Source of the DNA: a virus
IMG/VR virus record: IMGVR_UViG_3300020452_000313
Location: 1-26,239 of that record
Reading direction: 5' to 3' (one strand)
DNA: 26,239 nt
This document shows, piece after piece, positions 49-13,754 of the stretch. Numbering within the stretch: the first letter of the stretch is position 1; the number at the start of each line of letters is the position of its first letter. The notes under the pieces are model-generated. The model was not told the origin of the DNA. It ran no database searches and was given only the letters and a program-made list of their open reading frames with translations. The position numbers and the translations under genes were made by a program.

Positions 49-375
49 TTAATCGTCCCAATCATCATCCCAATCTAATTCTTCCTCTTCACCAAACATC
101 AGTTCGTAACTATCCGCGTCCTCCTCATCAAAATGATTCATACCCCACTGTAACATCTTATATCCTTGTAAACTACTGAATGATATGGTACTATCTCCCT
201 CATTCATAGCAAAACCTCTCTTCAACCACTCCGTTAGTTCGTGTTCTGGGTATGCATCCATCATCAGTTCAAGTAACTTCTCGAAGTTATCACGCTGTAA
301 GTGCTTATATTCGAGTGGTGGATGATTCAAATGCTTCTGCCACTGCGGATATAATCCATCCTCAATGAACATCAT
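49..375 (-). CDS. Acidic 108-aa protein of unknown function
   Basis: I do not recognise this protein. It is 108 residues and soluble, with no signal peptide or membrane segment. Its last 25 residues are almost all Asp, Glu and Trp and end in DDDWDD, giving a strongly acidic C-terminus. The ATG overlaps the stop of the preceding 222-aa gene (ATGA), so the two are probably translationally coupled. It is the last gene of the adhesion module before a new promoter at the left edge. An acidic tail could mimic DNA or bind a basic partner, but nothing here shows that. Coding status is well supported by the overlap and by the tight packing of neighbours. Confidence 0.8.
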   Translation of the reverse strand: MMFIEDGLYPQWQKHLNHPPLEYKHLQRDNFEKLLELMMDAYPEHELTEWLKRGFAMNEGDSTISFSSLQGYKMLQWGMNHFDEEDADSYELMFGEEEELDWDDDWDD

Positions 376-1040
376 CGCTCAAATACCTCAATGTTACCAT
401 CAATATACTGATGGATATAGTGTACTAATTCATCCTGTAGGTTCATTGGTTCGTTAGTGAATTCAATAATGTATCCTGGTTTCTCAAATTCTAACACATC
501 AAAATCACTTTTCAACCTTCTGGGTGCACCCATGGGTAATTCTACCTTACCATATGTGGCATTTTCCGTACAAATGAATATAGAATTATTATTCATAGGC
601 ATGAAATGCGTAGTTTTATCTACCTTTTGCACATGTCGCTCTAAATTTGGTATTGTCTTAGCATCAGGATTGATACCAACACAGAGAGCACTACCATTAT
701 CGGTCAATGATGTGAACCTCGTGACCCCAGATATGCGAAAACTTACGTTAGTACCAGGTTTGTAACGTAAGTAATGCGGATGTTTTGCTGTCTCGCTCAT
801 CCATATGCCATCAGTAAACAACAGACATCTACTATGCATGTAAAATCTGATCAGAAATTCAGTGGGAATGTCCATCCAATCAGGTATGATCGCATTGATC
901 ATGTCAATGTCAGGTTGTTTTACGTATGTCTTGTGTTCTTCTGGATCGTCACCAAAGAATTTAAAACCTTGGGCACATCCTCTATGATATAAAACTGTAA
1001 AATCTTCAAATGAATCAGTTACAGTGTATGATTTGCTCAT
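372..1040 (-). CDS. Unknown protein, tandem paralogue A (222 aa)
   Basis: The function is unknown. This protein is clearly related to the product of the next gene upstream (1037-1756). Both have an FG[DN]DP motif followed by QPD near the N-terminus (residues 29-43 here), a central HSR/HHR segment leading into an [FL]RISG / LRFSG strand, and a closing [YL]IIEFT...DG.IE pattern that ends in R. The start overlaps the stop of the paralogue by ATGA, and the stop overlaps the start of the acidic protein downstream. The length and mixed alpha/beta character suggest a globular domain. It lies downstream of the fibre and adhesin genes, so it may be a minor virion or host-recognition component, but no motif proves this. 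Confidence 0.8.
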   Translation of the reverse strand: MSKSYTVTDSFEDFTVLYHRGCAQGFKFFGDDPEEHKTYVKQPDIDMINAIIPDWMDIPTEFLIRFYMHSRCLLFTDGIWMSETAKHPHYLRYKPGTNVSFRISGVTRFTSLTDNGSALCVGINPDAKTIPNLERHVQKVDKTTHFMPMNNNSIFICTENATYGKVELPMGAPRRLKSDFDVLEFEKPGYIIEFTNEPMNLQDELVHYIHQYIDGNIEVFER

Positions 1041-3257: not shown

Positions 3258-6200
3258 TTAATACCTAAACCAAATGTCTCCGTTTGAACCTTGCGTCGTG
3301 GGTGCACTTGTACTTATCCATCTTCTACCATATGCATTTGATGCTGAACCAACAGTAAATGTAACTCCACCCGTAGTTGAGTTAACAGACCCGTCATAGA
3401 ATCCTGAAGGATTAGCAAATGATGTAACACCAGTATTATTTACAGTGATGGTGTTTGCACCATTTGTAATACTAATACCTGTTGAACTGCCTATGGTTGC
3501 TTTTGCAAATCCACTAGCAGAACCGATAAGTAGTTGACCATTACTCAGTGTTGAAGTATCTATGCCAGTTCCACCCTTGGTTCTACTGATAGTGGTTGCA
3601 TTCCATGTACCAGTTGTGACGGTACCAATAGTAGATAGAGACGATGCTGAAGTTAAGTTTCCAAGTGTGTCTATTGCAGATTCTATAGTAGCTTCAGTAG
3701 TAGCATCTAAAGCATCAATGTTTTGTAGTGTTGCAACACCAGTAGTATCTTGAATTACCTGAGAGGAACCAACAGTAAGTGCATTACCAATAGTTAAACC
3801 ACCCGATAAACTTAAGTTGTTGTTTATAGTTGTAGTACCAGTAGAAGCACCAATTGATACTGCAGTTGCTGCTCCACCTATGTTTAGTGTAGTTGCTGTA
3901 GTATTGATTAAGTTGAATGTACTATCATCAGTATTGATAGTACCACCATTTGCATTGATTGTACTAACGACGGTGAGTGCGTTACCAACATTGACATTAC
4001 CGCCAGTTTGAAGTGTACCAGTTCCTATTGTGAATGTGCCAGGATTATTAATTTTTATTCCAAGTCCGTTGTTAAATTCTAAATCACCTGTACTATCATT
4101 AGTACCACTACCACCTGTAATTGATAAATTACCAGTGTCACTTAATCCAAACTTAACCCAATTGTTGTTAAGGTATGTGTGTCCTAGATATTGTCCTCTT
4201 GTTGGGTTCTCTTGTAATTTCCAATCACCAGTGTCACCAACTGTAGTTCCAGTTGGAGCTGTAGCTAATACGTCAATGTTCTTAGATGCTTCACCAGTAA
4301 TACCAATAGTTATATCAGCAGCAGTTAATTTACCCTCAACAGCAGCTTCATTACGTACTCTTAACTTACCCTTGAAGTCAGACTCAAGTGTCTGGGATTC
4401 AACAGTGATCTTATCCCTAACAATGATCTCATCAAATGTAGGACGTAAGTTTGTAGTTTCACCAACGATTGATAATGTAGGAGTATCAAGGTTTGCTTCC
4501 TCACCAGTAACAGAACTAATCTTAGTATTACCAATGAATAAGTCACCATTACTATTAAGTCCAGAGTAGAATGCAATACCACCTTCCTCTTTCTGTGACT
4601 GTGATATGAGTATTTCTTGCTCAGTTAGAACTCTATTCTGTACTGAAGGCAGACCAGTTGAGTAGTTACCAGGACCATAACCAACATATTCAAATGTATG
4701 GTTACCAGATCTCAGGATACTTGGTCGTCTTAGTTCAGTATCAGTTGGTGATGTTGCAACTGGGAACATTCTTAATGCTTTATCTATTTCATCTGCTTCA
4801 CCGTCTCTTGCTTCAAGAGTAATATAGTTTGCTAACTGAGGACTATTTGGATTACCTGCGTTAACATAATTGTTTCTAGTTTCTTGAATAAATGAAGTAA
4901 TCGATTCCTTGGTAATAGATCTTGACTTATCCTCAGCTGTACCATCTGTACTTGTAACTAAACCAATCGTAGTATTACTTGCAACAGATGTTGTTGCGTC
5001 TGGATCTTCAGTTGGGTTATCTTTATCTAAAGTAGGGTATAGATCATTGATATTCTGAGAGAATGAGAATGAATTAACACTAGCGTTAGTAGGTGAGATA
5101 CTACCTTTTAATAAGGTACAATAGTAGACACCATTTTGTGTTGACTTCTGAAGTGGTTTCTCGATTTCAATGTCATAGATGTAATATACTTCCCCGTATG
5201 ACTGACCCGTAGGTACGTTTCTTGGTTGTACAATATAACCATTGATAGGATCTCTTGATAGAGATACAGAACTATCAACAACATAACGTATACGATATGT
5301 TCTATCACGAGAGGATCTATTATCTGGTGTACGACGCATGTAACCTGCACCAGTAAATAGAGAACTTCCATAGAAACCAGAACCTTGTACTCCTTCATTT
5401 CCTATATGATAATGAATACCTTTATATCCTGTAACGCCACTGGTTGTACTGTCTCCAGATGTAGCAGCAGTGACTCTAATATACCAGTTATTAAGTTCAG
5501 TATCCCATTGTAGTGGGTGACCAGGATCACCAGGTGTATATTGATTTTCAGTTATACCAGTGTATATACTGTCTGCTGGCGATGTAGTGCCATCAGGAGA
5601 TATCAATGCTGAACATATGACTGGGACTGAGTTGCCAGGAGTTGAAAGAGAATCTATTAATGAAACATATAATTTATCTTGTTTTCTAGCACCGATGTTG
5701 AAACCTTGTAGTTTATATGGAGGTTTTGTTGCTAGTGATCCATATCCATAGAGATATAATCTTGTATTAACAGCACCAATATACGCCCATGTAACTGTAC
5801 CGTCAGTAGCGGTTCCAGTTGTGTGACTAGGAGCAGTTGTAGATCCACCACTTGTTCCACCTGCAGCAGTATAATATGCATTACCGTTAGCAACAATAGA
5901 TGCTCCTGCAGCATAAGCTGTGCTGTTTGCGTGGGATCCATTATTTTGGGTTGCATTTGCCTTGATCTTCTGTACATCAAATGCTACATATCCAACTGGT
6001 ATCTCATTGATAGTACCCTTATATACAGTAATTCCTGATCCAGTTGTACCACGATATCCTCTATTCAGAGTCAATACACCTGTGCTAGAATCTACAGTAG
6101 TTACTTTATATGACTCCTGTGCATCATCTTGTATGAATTTAATATAATCATTAGCTACAATACCATGCTGATTGTTAGATACAGATGGAGTCACGGTCAC

Positions 6201-8865: not shown

Positions 8866-10398
8866 TTAGTTAAATGAATGGAAGTATACTTTTGCTCTGG
8901 AGACTCCTCCAGCACTAGTTGTATCTAATGTAGTAGATGCACCTGTTTGAGGATCAGTTAAAACGATCTCCCTTGCAGATATTTTACCGCCTGTTTTTGC
9001 AACAGGGTTAGTTGTATTAATAGTTATATCACCATCAATCCAACTGTTTCCAGATACGTCTAGTCTGTAACTGGGGGCTTTGCCGATACCGAAATTGCCA
9101 TTACCGTCTAGGACAGCTTGGTCAACGCCACTTTCATCAGCAAAATGCAGTCCGAATCCAACAGCTCTCTTTTGGATGATCGCTTTGGATGATCCTGTAT
9201 CTCCTAGAATAAGAGAGGAACCTGTGGCAAAGATTGAACCCTCTACCTCAAGATTATATGTAGCAGCAGTTCTACCTACACCCAACTTAGCAGCAGACGA
9301 TGCTCCTAATGAATGAGCAGTGCCTGTAGCAACAATATTTCCAGTCGAAGTAATATCTGTCACCATTTCAATAGGACCAGCAGCGGAAGGTCCGCTTTTA
9401 ATCTGAAGACCTGTTGCAGTTGTTTGTATACGATAAGAACCATCGCCACCATGATATATGCCAGTTTCTGTAGTATTTGCCTTAAAATACTTATTACCAC
9501 CAGCATCTTGCAACGTTATTGCAGGTGAGTAGACAAGCAATTGACTCGCAGTGCTTGAAATATATCCTACATCAATTGAACTCACATAACCAAGTTGAAA
9601 GTCGTCATCAGTTCCGAACTTGATGTATTTGTCATCAATCATGTCAATGTTATCATTGGCAGTGATGTCACCAGTAACAGTTGCACCTTGATTGATAACC
9701 AATGTGTTGTTGAATGTAGCACCCGCACTAAAGGATGATGCACCGTTCATCGTAACAGTATCTGCAGCATCAGATCCCAATGTAACATTACCACTCGCAT
9801 CTACGTCAGCAACTGTTAAAGTTCCTGTAAATACAGCACTTGCAAGAGTTTTGTTAGTTAATGTCTGAGAAGCACCTAGTGTTACTAATGTATCAGTAGC
9901 ATTAGATGCACCGTTGGAAGGTAACACATATGTATGAGTTACACCTGTGGGTATTGATGCTGAGTTGAACTTAGCAACTTTTGTTTCATCAACAGAGTTT
10001 GGTACTAAGAATACATCATCGCTTAACGCAAGGATAGAACCCAAACGTATTTTACCAGTACCTTGTGCAGTGATAGTAAGATCTAAATTGGCATCAGCAG
10101 AATCCTTAGCATCTAATTTAAGAGTGCTACCAACCTTTTGTAGGTTAAGTCTTGAATTACCCATTGCCAAGCTAACCTGTCCTTGGATTTCTGAAAATAG
10201 ACCAGTTGATGTTCTACCTTCAAATCCCAAACCAGGTGTAGTATATGAACCACCAGGTAATGCACGGAATATGCTTCCAACTGCAGATCTTTTGTTCTGA
10301 TCAGTTGGATCTGAGTTATCAAGAAGCAGCAGTGTATCAGAGGATGATACCTGTCCTGCAACTAATTCGGTTAAATCTGATATCTTACGAGTTGCCAC
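8866..10398 (-). CDS. Tail-fibre-like structural protein (510 aa)
   Basis: The N-terminus (TRKISDLTEL...SSDTLLLLDNSDPTDQNKRS) resembles the virion-attachment start of fibre proteins in T4-like cyanophages. The middle is a series of short beta repeats of the form G-[ND]-hydrophobic-T, for example SGNVTLGSDAADTVTMNG. The C-terminal half has a GNFGIGKAPSYRLDVSGN module of the type preceding many fibre tips. No intramolecular chaperone or enzyme is evident. It is the first gene of the adhesion module, 28 bp downstream of a TATAAATA late promoter. Probably a fibre or collar appendage; exact location in the virion is unknown. Confidence 0.8.
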   Translation of the reverse strand: MATRKISDLTELVAGQVSSSDTLLLLDNSDPTDQNKRSAVGSIFRALPGGSYTTPGLGFEGRTSTGLFSEIQGQVSLAMGNSRLNLQKVGSTLKLDAKDSADANLDLTITAQGTGKIRLGSILALSDDVFLVPNSVDETKVAKFNSASIPTGVTHTYVLPSNGASNATDTLVTLGASQTLTNKTLASAVFTGTLTVADVDASGNVTLGSDAADTVTMNGASSFSAGATFNNTLVINQGATVTGDITANDNIDMIDDKYIKFGTDDDFQLGYVSSIDVGYISSTASQLLVYSPAITLQDAGGNKYFKANTTETGIYHGGDGSYRIQTTATGLQIKSGPSAAGPIEMVTDITSTGNIVATGTAHSLGASSAAKLGVGRTAATYNLEVEGSIFATGSSLILGDTGSSKAIIQKRAVGFGLHFADESGVDQAVLDGNGNFGIGKAPSYRLDVSGNSWIDGDITINTTNPVAKTGGKISAREIVLTDPQTGASTTLDTTSAGGVSRAKVYFHSFN

Positions 10399-10434: not shown

Positions 10435-10870
10435 ACTTTTTTTGGAACAAGAAGTATCCTTCCGCACCTTCCCAGTAACCTTTGTCCCAACTATGGTATT
10501 GTGTGGCATATAATCTTGCTTTACTAGACAGTGGTTTTCCCTTATATGTGCAGTTTTGTTCGGATACACCTACAAAACAGTCATCATCTTTATCATAAGA
10601 AAATATTATATCACATGCAGTATTTTTTACTATTATAATAGGAACATTGACACCAACAATTTCTGGTTCTGTTATCTCAACTACCTGTTGTCTGTATGGT
10701 TCAGTCTGATATTCATAACGGGAGGATGTATCAAACGTTGTATCACCAATCTTTTTATGTGCCACCACAATGTGTGCCCACTTTGTAGGATTAGATGCAG
10801 CTTGAGTCCAATTGTCAAACTCACCCTCAAACCAATTGCAAAATTTCTCTAATTCCAACGAAATGGACAT
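10430..10870 (-). CDS. cpeT: CpeT-type phycobiliprotein lyase homologue
   Basis: The 146-aa product has the marks of the CpeT/CpcT family, which attaches bilins to phycobiliproteins in cyanobacteria. These are GEFDNWTQA near the N-terminus (residues 16-24), followed by a Pro and a short strand; EPYRQQVVE in the middle (57-65); and a C-terminal Cys, G-K-P-L-S-S and a final YFLFQKK strand. It is shorter than cyanobacterial CpeT (about 200 aa), as is usual for cyanophage copies. It is the last gene of the accessory cassette and overlaps the previous gene by 22 bp. It probably influences host pigment assembly or turnover during infection, but activity of viral CpeT is not shown here. This gene is the best single indicator that the host is a marine cyanobacterium. 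Confidence 0.88.
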   Translation of the reverse strand: MSISLELEKFCNWFEGEFDNWTQAASNPTKWAHIVVAHKKIGDTTFDTSSRYEYQTEPYRQQVVEITEPEIVGVNVPIIIVKNTACDIIFSYDKDDDCFVGVSEQNCTYKGKPLSSKARLYATQYHSWDKGYWEGAEGYFLFQKKL

Positions 10871-11514
10871 TTACCCTCCCTACTCACTCTACCTTTAATT
10901 ATATCCCATGAATTGAACTTAGTAAACTTTCTTAGTGTGTACGCTTCATCTAACTGTTTGATTAGTTTCTCTGGCACATCTCGCTGCTCTAACTTGAAGT
11001 TTGAATCAGATCGTTGAGAATATAATCTAAAGTAATATAACGGTGTACCTTTGGGTAGATATATGTCATTATCTAATACTTTAACACCAACAACCATAGG
11101 TCGATACCATACAGATATTGGGAACGTAGCAGGTACTAAGTCTAATCCATATCGAGAGAGGAGGGGATGAGGGATTTGTTCAATCCACACATCTTTATCC
11201 TCTGTCCATATGGACATTGCATATTTCATTTGTATTTCTGGGTATGTACCACTTAACCAGTTTTCACCCACTTGAAAGTAATCATCATATGCGTCTTGTT
11301 TTAGACTAGATTCAATCCTATCTTCTTTTATCTTAAATCCCAAATCAAATGGTTGTGTAACTACCCATGTGTTATCAGTCCACTTCTTCCATGCAGGACA
11401 TTTGGCATGATCATATCTCATATCATATCCAGTTTTATATGGTTGTGGTGGTTCGTAAAATTCAGAAGGAAGTTGTTTCTCTCCAATTTTATATGACCAA
11501 TATGCCTTCTTCAT
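10849..11514 (-). CDS. Unknown 221-aa protein between 2OG oxygenase and CpeT
   Basis: I do not recognise a named family with certainty. The sequence is rich in Trp and Tyr, with WVVTQPFDLGFKI (about residues 49-61), IWTEDKDVWIEQIPHP (about 102-117) and a PKGTPLYYFRLY strand (about 153-164), suggesting a beta sandwich or cupin-like barrel. That fold is speculation. Its ATG overlaps the stop of the 2OG oxygenase gene (ATGA), and its 3' end overlaps cpeT by 22 bp, so the three are made together. Proteins of this look accompany oxygenase genes in marine phages, and a shared pathway is plausible. No metal-binding signature is clear. Confidence 0.8.
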   Translation of the reverse strand: MKKAYWSYKIGEKQLPSEFYEPPQPYKTGYDMRYDHAKCPAWKKWTDNTWVVTQPFDLGFKIKEDRIESSLKQDAYDDYFQVGENWLSGTYPEIQMKYAMSIWTEDKDVWIEQIPHPLLSRYGLDLVPATFPISVWYRPMVVGVKVLDNDIYLPKGTPLYYFRLYSQRSDSNFKLEQRDVPEKLIKQLDEAYTLRKFTKFNSWDIIKGRVSREGKCPFRWN

Positions 11515-11984
11515 TTCTCAAAATAATTAATATTAAGAACCAACCTTCTAGTGTCTGTAGAAGGAACACCTCTATGTTCTAAGTTAGTATCAAATATAGC
11601 AGCGGTGTTTGCTACACTATTAACTATATCTTCTCTGAACTCAGTATACCCATCATTGTCATTTAAGTACAACACACAAGTTTTACTTGGTGTGGATATT
11701 TTAAGATCCTGATGCCATCCTTGATACGGTGCATTCTTTGGTGTAGCATTGATCTTAATTCTAAACACAGCGATAGCACCTAACTGAATACACATTGTAG
11801 ATAACAAGCGTTTCAGTTTAGGTGTTACATCGTCCGAGAACTGGTGATCGTAATACAACAAGTTACTGTATTGTTCTGGTTCTCCCTCTGACTGTGGAAA
11901 ATACCATCGAAAATTTTTAGCAGTAACTATGTTTTTAAATTCTGTAAATGTATAATGCTTAAGGAAGTTCTGATGTATCTGCAT
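11511..11984 (-). CDS. 2-oxoglutarate/Fe(II)-dependent oxygenase
   Basis: The 157-aa protein has the facial triad of the 2OG-Fe(II) oxygenase superfamily. W-H-Q-D gives His91 and Asp93, LEHRG gives His137, and STDTRRLVL supplies the 2-oxoglutarate-binding Arg (146 or 147). A cupin core with a FRIKIN strand before the HxD is visible. The family couples 2OG decarboxylation to hydroxylation of a protein, nucleotide or small molecule; the substrate here is unknown. I chose the ATG at 11984 over the GTG one codon earlier. The start lies inside the 3' end of the acyl carrier protein gene, a 26-bp overlap. Cyanophages commonly carry several such oxygenases, thought to act in infected-cell metabolism. 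Confidence 0.88.
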   Translation of the reverse strand: MQIHQNFLKHYTFTEFKNIVTAKNFRWYFPQSEGEPEQYSNLLYYDHQFSDDVTPKLKRLLSTMCIQLGAIAVFRIKINATPKNAPYQGWHQDLKISTPSKTCVLYLNDNDGYTEFREDIVNSVANTAAIFDTNLEHRGVPSTDTRRLVLNINYFEK

Positions 11985-12432
11985 CACTAGGCAATGTTTT
12001 ATTCATATAGTCTAAAGGTTTTTTAGACATCATAGGACTATCGGGATGTGGAATAACATTCTTATTCCTGTCATATTTACTAGGGTCAATTCTCTTTGAC
12101 TTGCCTTTGTTTGATTTTGCTTTTTTAATTGCTTCGATTGCATCACCAACTGTGACAATTTCCATTGCCATATCATCAGTTAGTTCAACTGCAAAGCATT
12201 CTTCTAAGAACATTACAAGTTCTACCATATCTAATGAATCTAAACCTAGATCATCAGATAATTTAGAATCCCATGCAACTTCTATCTCTTCTCCTGTCTC
12301 CTTGTCTACAAGTCTTTCCATTATGGTTTCCTTGATAGCAAGCTTAGCAACCTTAAGCATAGTCTGTTTCGACACACGCTTTGATTGCTTAATAAGAGTT
12401 CTAATTTCAGTATAAGTTTGATTGTATGCCAT
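11959..12432 (-). CDS. Acyl carrier protein with extended termini
   Basis: A full ACP domain spans about residues 24-105. It includes the signature DLGLDSLDMVELVMFLEE, in which Ser66 of D-S-L is the 4'-phosphopantetheine attachment site, followed by FAVELTDDMAMEIVTVGDAIEAI, matching helices II-IV of bacterial AcpP. The product is 157 aa, about twice the usual 75-85. It has a basic N-terminal extension (about 23 aa) and a C-terminal tail of about 50 residues rich in Lys, Pro and Asp, with no known motif. The ATG at 12432 shares its A with the stop of the 56-aa gene (TAATG), so I reject the earlier in-frame Met at 12462. ACPs carry acyl chains in fatty-acid, polyketide or lipid A-type synthesis. 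No synthase or transferase is visible here, so the phage protein would have to use host partners. Confidence 0.92.
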   Translation of the reverse strand: MAYNQTYTEIRTLIKQSKRVSKQTMLKVAKLAIKETIMERLVDKETGEEIEVAWDSKLSDDLGLDSLDMVELVMFLEECFAVELTDDMAMEIVTVGDAIEAIKKAKSNKGKSKRIDPSKYDRNKNVIPHPDSPMMSKKPLDYMNKTLPSDADTSELP

Positions 12433-12602
12433 TAAACGTAAACTACCTCGCCATTTAAACATGTATCCCGAACTACATCGAGTATTCTCATAAATTCATC
12501 TCCATTGTCACAATCAATGACTTTGGCAGATCCTTCACTACTTAATAGTGTAAACCTTTTCTTAGGAATGTCAACCGTCACTTTATCGAGAACTTCATTC
12601 AT
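12432..12602 (-). CDS. Small unknown protein coupled to the ACP (56 aa)
   Basis: A 56-codon open frame starts MNEVLDKVTVDIPKK and ends GEVVYV. It reads through the whole gap between the 74-aa gene and the ACP gene. Its TAA overlaps the ACP's ATG by one base, the arrangement used by true gene pairs throughout this operon. The product is small and slightly acidic, with a predicted beta hairpin and a C-terminal helix-strand, and no recognised domain. Coding status rests on the overlap and on filling an otherwise empty slot. It may be an ACP partner, which is unproven. Confidence 0.65.
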   Translation of the reverse strand: MNEVLDKVTVDIPKKRFTLLSSEGSAKVIDCDNGDEFMRILDVVRDTCLNGEVVYV

Positions 12603-12644: not shown

Positions 12645-12869
12645 TCAGGTTGTAAAGTAGGGTGTGTCACTTCTTCTTGTGGCACGTAGTTTTACTGCAG
12701 CTGCCTTTTCGATGAGAGACTTACCTATATCACGGTTCTCCATCATGTGCTGCATTGCATTATCTTTATCTTCCTTAACCATTTCTTCGACGTAATCGTC
12801 TAAATGTTTTGCAAGAATGTCTTTAAGAAAATTTGCTTCTTGCTTAGTTACTGACATGTGAAAAGTCAT
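12645..12869 (-). CDS. Small helical protein, unknown (74 aa)
   Basis: The product is predicted to be almost entirely alpha-helical (residues 6-60), with charged and hydrophobic residues alternating as in a coiled coil. The C-terminus is basic with Thr/Ser. The ATG at 12869 has a good AAGGA ribosome-binding site about 7 nt upstream, which favours it over the internal Met at residue 5. It follows the spike gene by 21 bp and heads the accessory cassette. I do not recognise a family. Confidence 0.7.
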   Translation of the reverse strand: MTFHMSVTKQEANFLKDILAKHLDDYVEEMVKEDKDNAMQHMMENRDIGKSLIEKAAAVKLRATRRSDTPYFTT

Positions 12870-12890: not shown

Positions 12891-13754
12891 TCAATTCAAG
12901 TAAATGTTAGCAGCATCCATATCTATGTTGCCATCAGCATTTATATCCATATTACCAGTAGTATCTGTTCGTACATCACCAGTTACTGTCCTATAATAAC
13001 TGGATGATTGAGGAGCATCAACTGCACCGATAAAGTTTCCACCCGCTATAGGTGTCTTATCATTACCATATACAGTGTCCCTAACTTTACCAAACATCGT
13101 ATTATATTGATTACCTTTGGTAACCTCATATCGAGTGCCTTCAGTATTTAATGCCAAGTTGCCTTCACTGTGTACTGAAACAGCACCTGTATTTGATGTT
13201 TGTTTTATGGCATGGAACTTATCTGTTTTTTGTTCTGCTACTTTATAATGAGAGTGGTATGTTGTACCCTCATTAATATATTTCGCAGTTTTTATTTTTG
13301 TGGTATTTGCTGTCTTCAATGAGTAATTAGATTTAGTTTCATTGAGATAGTTACCACCAACGGTGAGTTTATAATCACCATTGACTCTATGATTGAAGTT
13401 GCCTTCGCATTCATAATGTGTGTCACCTTCGACATATATTCTCAAGTCACCTCGTACAGTTAGAGACATCATATCAGAATCAGGGTTCTTACCAACCTCA
13501 AAAACTGTATTTCTATCAGACCTTACGATAAAGTCTTGATGAGCTTTGATCTGAGTGTTCTTTTTAACATCCATATCAATGTAGTTCTTGGTTTTGCCAT
13601 GAACTATCCTCACTCTTTGACCATCCTTAGAGTTGTTCATCTCTAAGAAGTGTCCACATGAGGTTGACTGCACCCAGTTATGCGGCCATAATATTGGATT
13701 GTCAGGTGAATTATTGGATGTTTCCGACCCACCGCTGAATCTAGTTAAACTCAT
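12891..13754 (-). CDS. gp5-type beta-helix central spike (separate polypeptide)
   Basis: The 287-aa protein consists of many short strands with repeated G-[ND]-x-hydrophobic turns (for example VRGDLRIYVEGDTHYECEGNFNHRV). It ends in a regular repeat, TGNMDINADGNIDMDAANIYLN in two pieces, as in the triple-stranded beta-helix of T4 gp5 and VgrG-type spikes. I infer it forms the membrane-piercing needle under the hub. In T4 this domain is the C-terminus of gp5; here it is its own gene, starting on the stop of the OB-fold gene by TAATG and preceded by a strong GGAGGTGG ribosome-binding site (13768-13761). No catalytic residues are present, as expected for a needle. Confidence 0.75.
   Translation of the reverse strand: MSLTRFSGGSETSNNSPDNPILWPHNWVQSTSCGHFLEMNNSKDGQRVRIVHGKTKNYIDMDVKKNTQIKAHQDFIVRSDRNTVFEVGKNPDSDMMSLTVRGDLRIYVEGDTHYECEGNFNHRVNGDYKLTVGGNYLNETKSNYSLKTANTTKIKTAKYINEGTTYHSHYKVAEQKTDKFHAIKQTSNTGAVSVHSEGNLALNTEGTRYEVTKGNQYNTMFGKVRDTVYGNDKTPIAGGNFIGAVDAPQSSSYYRTVTGDVRTDTTGNMDINADGNIDMDAANIYLN

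Follow-up and report, generated by a model that had tools for sequence, protein, structure and literature searches.

Acyl carrier proteins (ACPs) encoded by phages have been known as a kind since 2010, when the cyanophages P-HM1 and P-HM2 were reported to carry both an ACP (T4-GC457) and a phosphopantetheinyl transferase (T4-GC500), the Eurybiavirus-type pair (Sullivan et al., 2010, PMC3037559). Several phage groups are now known to encode ACPs; "acyl carrier protein ACP 2/153" is listed in a review of cyanophage genomes, and ACPs have been reported from other marine phages. In the portions of the open literature covered by our search on phage and cyanophage ACPs, we found reports of genes and no functional test. 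The ACPs of phiCbK, GAP32, pf16, Serratia 3M, and Vibrio P018-4, each the one PF00550 match of its genome, lie among small non-structural genes, and the transferase family PF01648 has no match in any of these five genomes. A link to hypermodified bases was considered and set aside, the sole mention of "acyl carrier" in the portion of PMC5977210 consulted being the "acyl carrier protein reductase" of SP-15. In bacteria, the corresponding protein is AcpP, which has 80 residues and is encoded, for example in Prochlorococcus, next to fabF.

The DNA analyzed here (the window) is a 26,239-base viral contig from an ocean virus of Prochlorococcus-type bacteria. Its ACP gene occupies 11959–12432 on the minus strand, with the ATG at 12432 and the stop ending at 11959, and encodes 157 residues with Ser66 within LGLDSLDMVEL; a first-pass annotation had recognized this reading frame and its serine and had given no strand. 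The protein consists of a basic N-terminal extension (residues 1–32), an ACP core (approximately 33–107), and a basic linker followed by a variable tail (108–157), the C-terminal extension amounting to ~50 residues. The two extensions carry charges of +6 and +5 and the acidic core −14, and the basic character of the N-terminal extension and the linker is conserved among the relatives. The protein passes the Pfam model PF00550 (PP-binding; 39.2 bits, cut-off 20.8) and falls below the cut-offs of the NCBIfam AcpP models TIGR00517 and NF002148 (61.3 versus 70.45 and 62.6 versus 71 bits, respectively), although these still match at E = 2e-17. PHROG 27464, labeled "unknown function," covers nearly its full length at 1e-56, PHROGs annotated as ACP match the core, and a PDB search returns 102 distinct ACP-like sequences at E ≤ 0.001. 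AlphaFold2, run on a 45-row alignment, places helices at residues 3–16, 22–41, 66–80, 86–90, and 95–107, with pLDDT of 77–91 in the core blocks and below 50 from residue 142 onward in the C-terminal tail. VIA-align superimposes the model on holo-PfACP (3gzl) with a Z score of 12.4 and an rmsd of 1.5 over 81 residues, the aligned rows spanning residues 17–109 and the first helix lying outside the comparison. The protein is thus predicted to have a four-helix ACP fold with an extra N-terminal helix (3–16) and a disordered C-terminal tail. This agrees with the helix pattern read in the first-pass annotation and bears out its remark that the long termini are foreign to AcpP. Sixteen residues are invariant in the 45-row alignment (DSLDMVELVMFLEECF), and T6 and I10 are invariant within the extra N-terminal helix.

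Searches of viral contigs gave 82 relatives of the ACP, 80 of which were retrieved and analyzed. Ser66 and SLDMVELVMFLEE are present in 80/80, with the reservation that DMVELVMF, which was among the six search patterns, falls inside the motif stretch and biases its apparent conservation; this pattern starts two residues past Ser66, and the serine itself lies outside it. Median pairwise dN/dS (Nei-Gojobori, 221 non-independent pairs) is 0.14 in residues 1–32, 0.089 in residues 33–107, and 0.24 in the tail. Three of the relatives (L053, L064, and L079) are truncated; they were excluded from the dN/dS, charge, and alignment analyses and included in the serine tally, their motif being present. These values indicate that the gene is under purifying selection, the opposite of the loss of Ser66 with no sign of selection that the first-pass annotation had raised as a counter-indication.

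The window ACP shares its fold, the serine of the DSL motif, and the helix-II surface with bacterial AcpP. Against the AcpP of the single-cell genome Prochlorococcus sp. AG-418-C09, it shows 54% identity over 57 residues, and the residues common to the two (DSLD-VELVM-LEE-F) lie in helix II and the following loop, which are presumably the surface that AcpP presents to its enzymes. The N- and C-terminal extensions occur only in the phage protein, and, unlike acpP, the window gene has no fab genes beside it. In a tree of 68 columns with midpoint rooting that also includes 20 cyanobacterial and five other ACPs, all 18 phage ACPs group together (100/100), and a long stem sets them outside the cyanobacterial group; bacterial loci whose ACP was off-motif or more than 80% identical to a row already kept were left out of this tree. 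A recent origin of the gene from host acpP was considered and rejected, since both the two extensions and the separate long-stem clade, within the limits of 68 columns and a midpoint root, set the phage protein apart. It is a real, selected, and phage-specific ACP.

Its genomic position is equally constant. The window proteins correspond to the baseplate, tail, and fiber region of a T4-like cyanophage, including gp53, a tail tube cap, a gp4-like head closure protein, tail tube, baseplate hub, gp5, and fibers. Directly upstream of the ACP gene lies a gene for a 56-residue DUF7294 protein (PF23966, phrog_662; 12432–12602, minus strand), whose TAA stop shares one base with the ACP start (TAATG), a stop-start overlap that is likely to couple their translation. 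The TAATG overlap recurs in 57 of the 80 relatives, the other 23 having an ATTATG start, and DUF7294 immediately precedes the ACP in all 80, so that the placement in a tail operon noted in the first-pass annotation extends to a fixed spot across the family. Further upstream on the same strand are a gene for a 74-residue protein (phrog_25405; 12645–12869), found in the same three isolates as the ACP, and one for a 287-residue T4 gp5-type C-terminal β-helix spike protein (phrog_24638, weak PF22178 match; 12891–13754). The 74-residue gene sits between the spike gene and DUF7294 in most relatives and not in a divergent group. In all relatives long enough to include it, the spike gene precedes the ACP by two to three genes. 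On the downstream side, likewise on the minus strand, the 3′ end of the ACP gene overlaps the gene for a small 2OG-Fe(II) oxygenase-like protein (158 residues; 11511–11987), which is followed by a gene for a 221-residue protein (phrog_17480; 10849–11514) and by a CpeT-like gene (PF06206; 10430–10870). CpeT and fiber genes are found downstream of the ACP in all relatives whose contig reaches them, whereas the oxygenase-like and 221-residue genes are optional neighbors. The P-HM1/P-HM2 ACP is a homologue (51–58% identity over 93–99% of the length), and in P-HM1 it likewise has DUF7294 on one side and cpeT on the other, except that these two optional genes are missing. Modification of something on the ACP by the oxygenase was rejected because the oxygenase-like gene is absent beside the ACP in P-HM1, MED4-213, and many relatives. 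In six other cyanophages, whose genomes have no PF00550 match by Pfam, the spot after DUF7294 is either empty up to the fiber gene or occupied by tRNAs, 2OG oxygenases, or small genes; because the spot is so variable, it may be a cargo slot.

Among the 25 window proteins, Pfam finds no acyl synthase, acyl transferase, phosphopantetheinyl transferase, or fab family. The absence of such partners claimed in the first-pass annotation therefore stands, for the window only; close relatives encode a phosphopantetheinyl transferase elsewhere in their genomes. In P-HM1, this is PHM1_077, a protein of 152 residues annotated as 4′-P-pantetheinyl transferase, encoded ~23 kb from the ACP and matching PF01648 with 34.4 bits (cut-off 25); an alignment of ten copies shows GVDIE and WCQKEAYTK to be invariant. 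A tblastn search of 50,697 phage records found the ACP family in six and the transferase in the identical six, namely P-HM1, P-HM2, MED4-213, and duplicates. Strict pairing of the two genes, which this result at first suggested, is refuted by longer environmental genomes (77–87 kb and 189 kb). A search of 21 records, consisting of P-HM1 and 20 environmental contigs with the ACP, finds PF01648 in P-HM1 alone, and most of the contigs do not extend as far as the spot. Three ACP-bearing contigs of 77–87 kb have no transferase, also with search filters off, though they contain the P-HM1 flanking genes (079, 081, PAAR, and gp25 in 3/3; 082 in 2/3). The transferase is thus missing from most ACP-bearing records examined, which weakens the argument from co-occurrence, and its absence from long relatives implies that a host enzyme must usually serve, if the phage ACP is activated at all. 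One protein encoded near the transferase, PHM1_082 (9858–10367 in locus L084), is annotated as a "putative RTX toxin" and was considered as an acylated RTX protein; Pfam finds in it no RTX repeat and no acyltransferase, and it is probably a baseplate part, encoded beside the PAAR gene.

A natural host cell is available for a relative of this phage. The single-cell genome AG-418-C09 includes a 189,106-base contig that carries a phage-type ACP and that matches 45 of 47 P-HM1 proteins at E = 1e-5 or better (psbD via the psbA frame only), the two proteins having no match being the transferase and purM. By its gene content, this contig is apparently the nearly complete genome of a T4-like cyanophage, deposited as bacterial sequence. 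The window ACP has a match at 1e-5 in 347 of the 400 genomes from that family, and in AG-418-C09 alone does the match reach the level of the phage protein (2e-28); the next match, at 1e-15, is a 96-residue frame of host-like length. A profile search for PF01648 found nothing on the phage contig, whereas the cell encodes a single PF01648 protein, which length and motif assign to the Sfp type, as well as an AcpP of its own adjoining a frame that we read as fabF. Here too, the host enzyme must serve if the phage ACP is activated.

Together, these observations lead us to a proposal that we regard as evenly balanced between right and wrong: that the protein is a phage-owned carrier of the fatty-acid-synthesis type, made with the baseplate-hub and tail-fiber genes, charged by host fatty-acid synthesis, and acting late. 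The ACP would be produced together with the baseplate-hub and tail-fiber proteins, and in the infected cell Ser66 would be loaded with phosphopantetheine by the Sfp-type transferase of the host, giving the presumed holo-form; in the P-HM1/P-HM2/MED4-213 group, the small phage transferase might load it as well, or instead. Host fatty-acid enzymes would then charge the protein with acyl chains. Charging by the host is suggested by the AcpP helix-II surface that the phage protein keeps. Counting against the proposal as a whole, Pfam finds no ketosynthase, acyltransferase, thioesterase, or acyl-ligase family among 88 P-HM1 proteins, a set that omits the largest structural proteins. The acyl chains would finally pass to an acceptor important late in infection, the timing being suggested by gene position. 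Counts of the T4 late-promoter motif in the window show no enrichment (TATAAATA, 2 found versus 3.34 expected; TATAAAT, 9 versus 11.18), which speaks against this timing. No partner that uses or accepts the acyl chains was identified, and each of the three uses put forward in the first-pass annotation (redirection of fatty acids, decoy, and acylation of a virion protein) is no more than a possibility.

The first of these uses would make the gene an auxiliary metabolic gene, whose product tops up the host AcpP pool and so sustains membrane or thylakoid lipid synthesis during infection. The retained AcpP surface residues and the further metabolic genes of P-HM1 fit this idea, and a role in lipid metabolism has been proposed for the ACPs of other phages (R22Y and roseobacter prophages). 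It is nonetheless unlikely in our judgement: the protein has two extensions that host AcpP lacks and falls in a long-stem clade outside 20 cyanobacterial AcpPs, which speaks against a recent host copy, and the gene lies among tail genes rather than metabolic ones, with no fabF or fabG beside it, in contrast to what is reported for roseobacter prophages. Alternatively, the protein could be a decoy or regulator that binds ACP-dependent enzymes or sensors of the host through helix II and its basic extensions, acylated or not, and blocks or redirects them. Such binding would be in keeping with the sixteen invariant residues and the conserved basic N-terminal extension and linker, yet the retained Ser66 and a dedicated transferase in one group favor carrier chemistry, and we consider a decoy improbable.

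Quite improbable, in turn, is a role as an adaptor subunit like the ACPs of respiratory complex I or of the Ycf2-FtsHi motor, in which the protein would be part of a tail-assembly intermediate or of a host complex. Both complexes appear among the structural matches of the model, the extra helix has the invariant T6 and I10, and the gene is located in the baseplate-hub cluster; the fold, however, is common to every ACP, so that the matches carry little weight, and no partner was identified. The location also invites the idea of a private acyl transfer for the tail, in which the ACP, armed in one sub-group by a mini-Sfp transferase that the phage itself encodes, loads fatty acids into the membrane-piercing β-helix of the gp5-type spike or acylates another virion protein. 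There is a precedent in T4, where the gp5 β-helix is reported to contain palmitic, stearic, and oleic acid, possibly aiding its folding (PMC4576200). Among cyanophage records, the spike has the same three-phage range as the ACP: a tblastn search with the spike protein finds P-HM1, P-HM2, and MED4-213, its remaining hits being Vibrio and Rhizobiales phages and a few more, and PF22178 matches weakly in the ACP-bearing P-HM1, MED4-213, and single-cell contig and not in six cyanophages without ACP. However, the 74-residue gene and a 335-residue fiber gene share this three-phage distribution, which may therefore reflect lineage only; PF00550 is found in 0/3 examined T4-like phages with the spike domain, and in other cyanophages the ACP spot resembles a cargo slot, which makes placement alone weak evidence. 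With the correlation confounded by lineage, transfer to the tail is the least probable of these readings and very doubtful; if true, a contractile tail would have in the ACP its dedicated lipid-loading factor.

To the gene reported in 2010, the present analysis adds its strand and exact anatomy, the fixed spot after DUF7294, the conservation of Ser66, the patchy occurrence of the transferase, and a natural Prochlorococcus host cell with a relative of the phage. The lineage is a good test case for the use of phage ACPs, as it has members cultured on Prochlorococcus MED4 and combines a strictly conserved ACP with a fixed place in the tail cluster and a sub-group that has a transferase. Naming the cargo and the acceptor would reveal either that abundant cyanobacteria of the ocean undergo a new kind of lipid takeover or that tail assembly includes a lipid step.

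Several further features of the region were observed. The oxygenase-like protein encoded at 11511–11987 is labeled "DNA endonuclease V" by PHROG 274, yet it also resembles 2OG-Fe(II) oxygenases by profile (phrog_61, and Pfam at a score under the cut-off); the endonuclease name stands next to cpeT in the RefSeq record of P-HM2, and for this protein it is probably an error. Four relatives (L024, L039, L041, and L042) have ~1.6 kb of extra sequence between the 74-residue gene and DUF7294 (approximately 4200–5790 of the locus), which we read as a second cargo spot just before the DUF7294-ACP pair. An insertion of 1.5–1.7 kb between the 221-residue gene and CpeT is present in L046, L050, L057–L060, L066, L068–L070, L072, L074, L077, and L080; these relatives are divergent, and the C-terminal tail of their ACP differs too. 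Finally, two adjacent minus-strand genes of the window (372–1040 and 1037–1756) have no Pfam match and lie in the region that in P-HM1 contains the neighboring genes PHM1_034 and PHM1_035, which cross-match each other's homologues, and the window pair may likewise be tandem paralogues.
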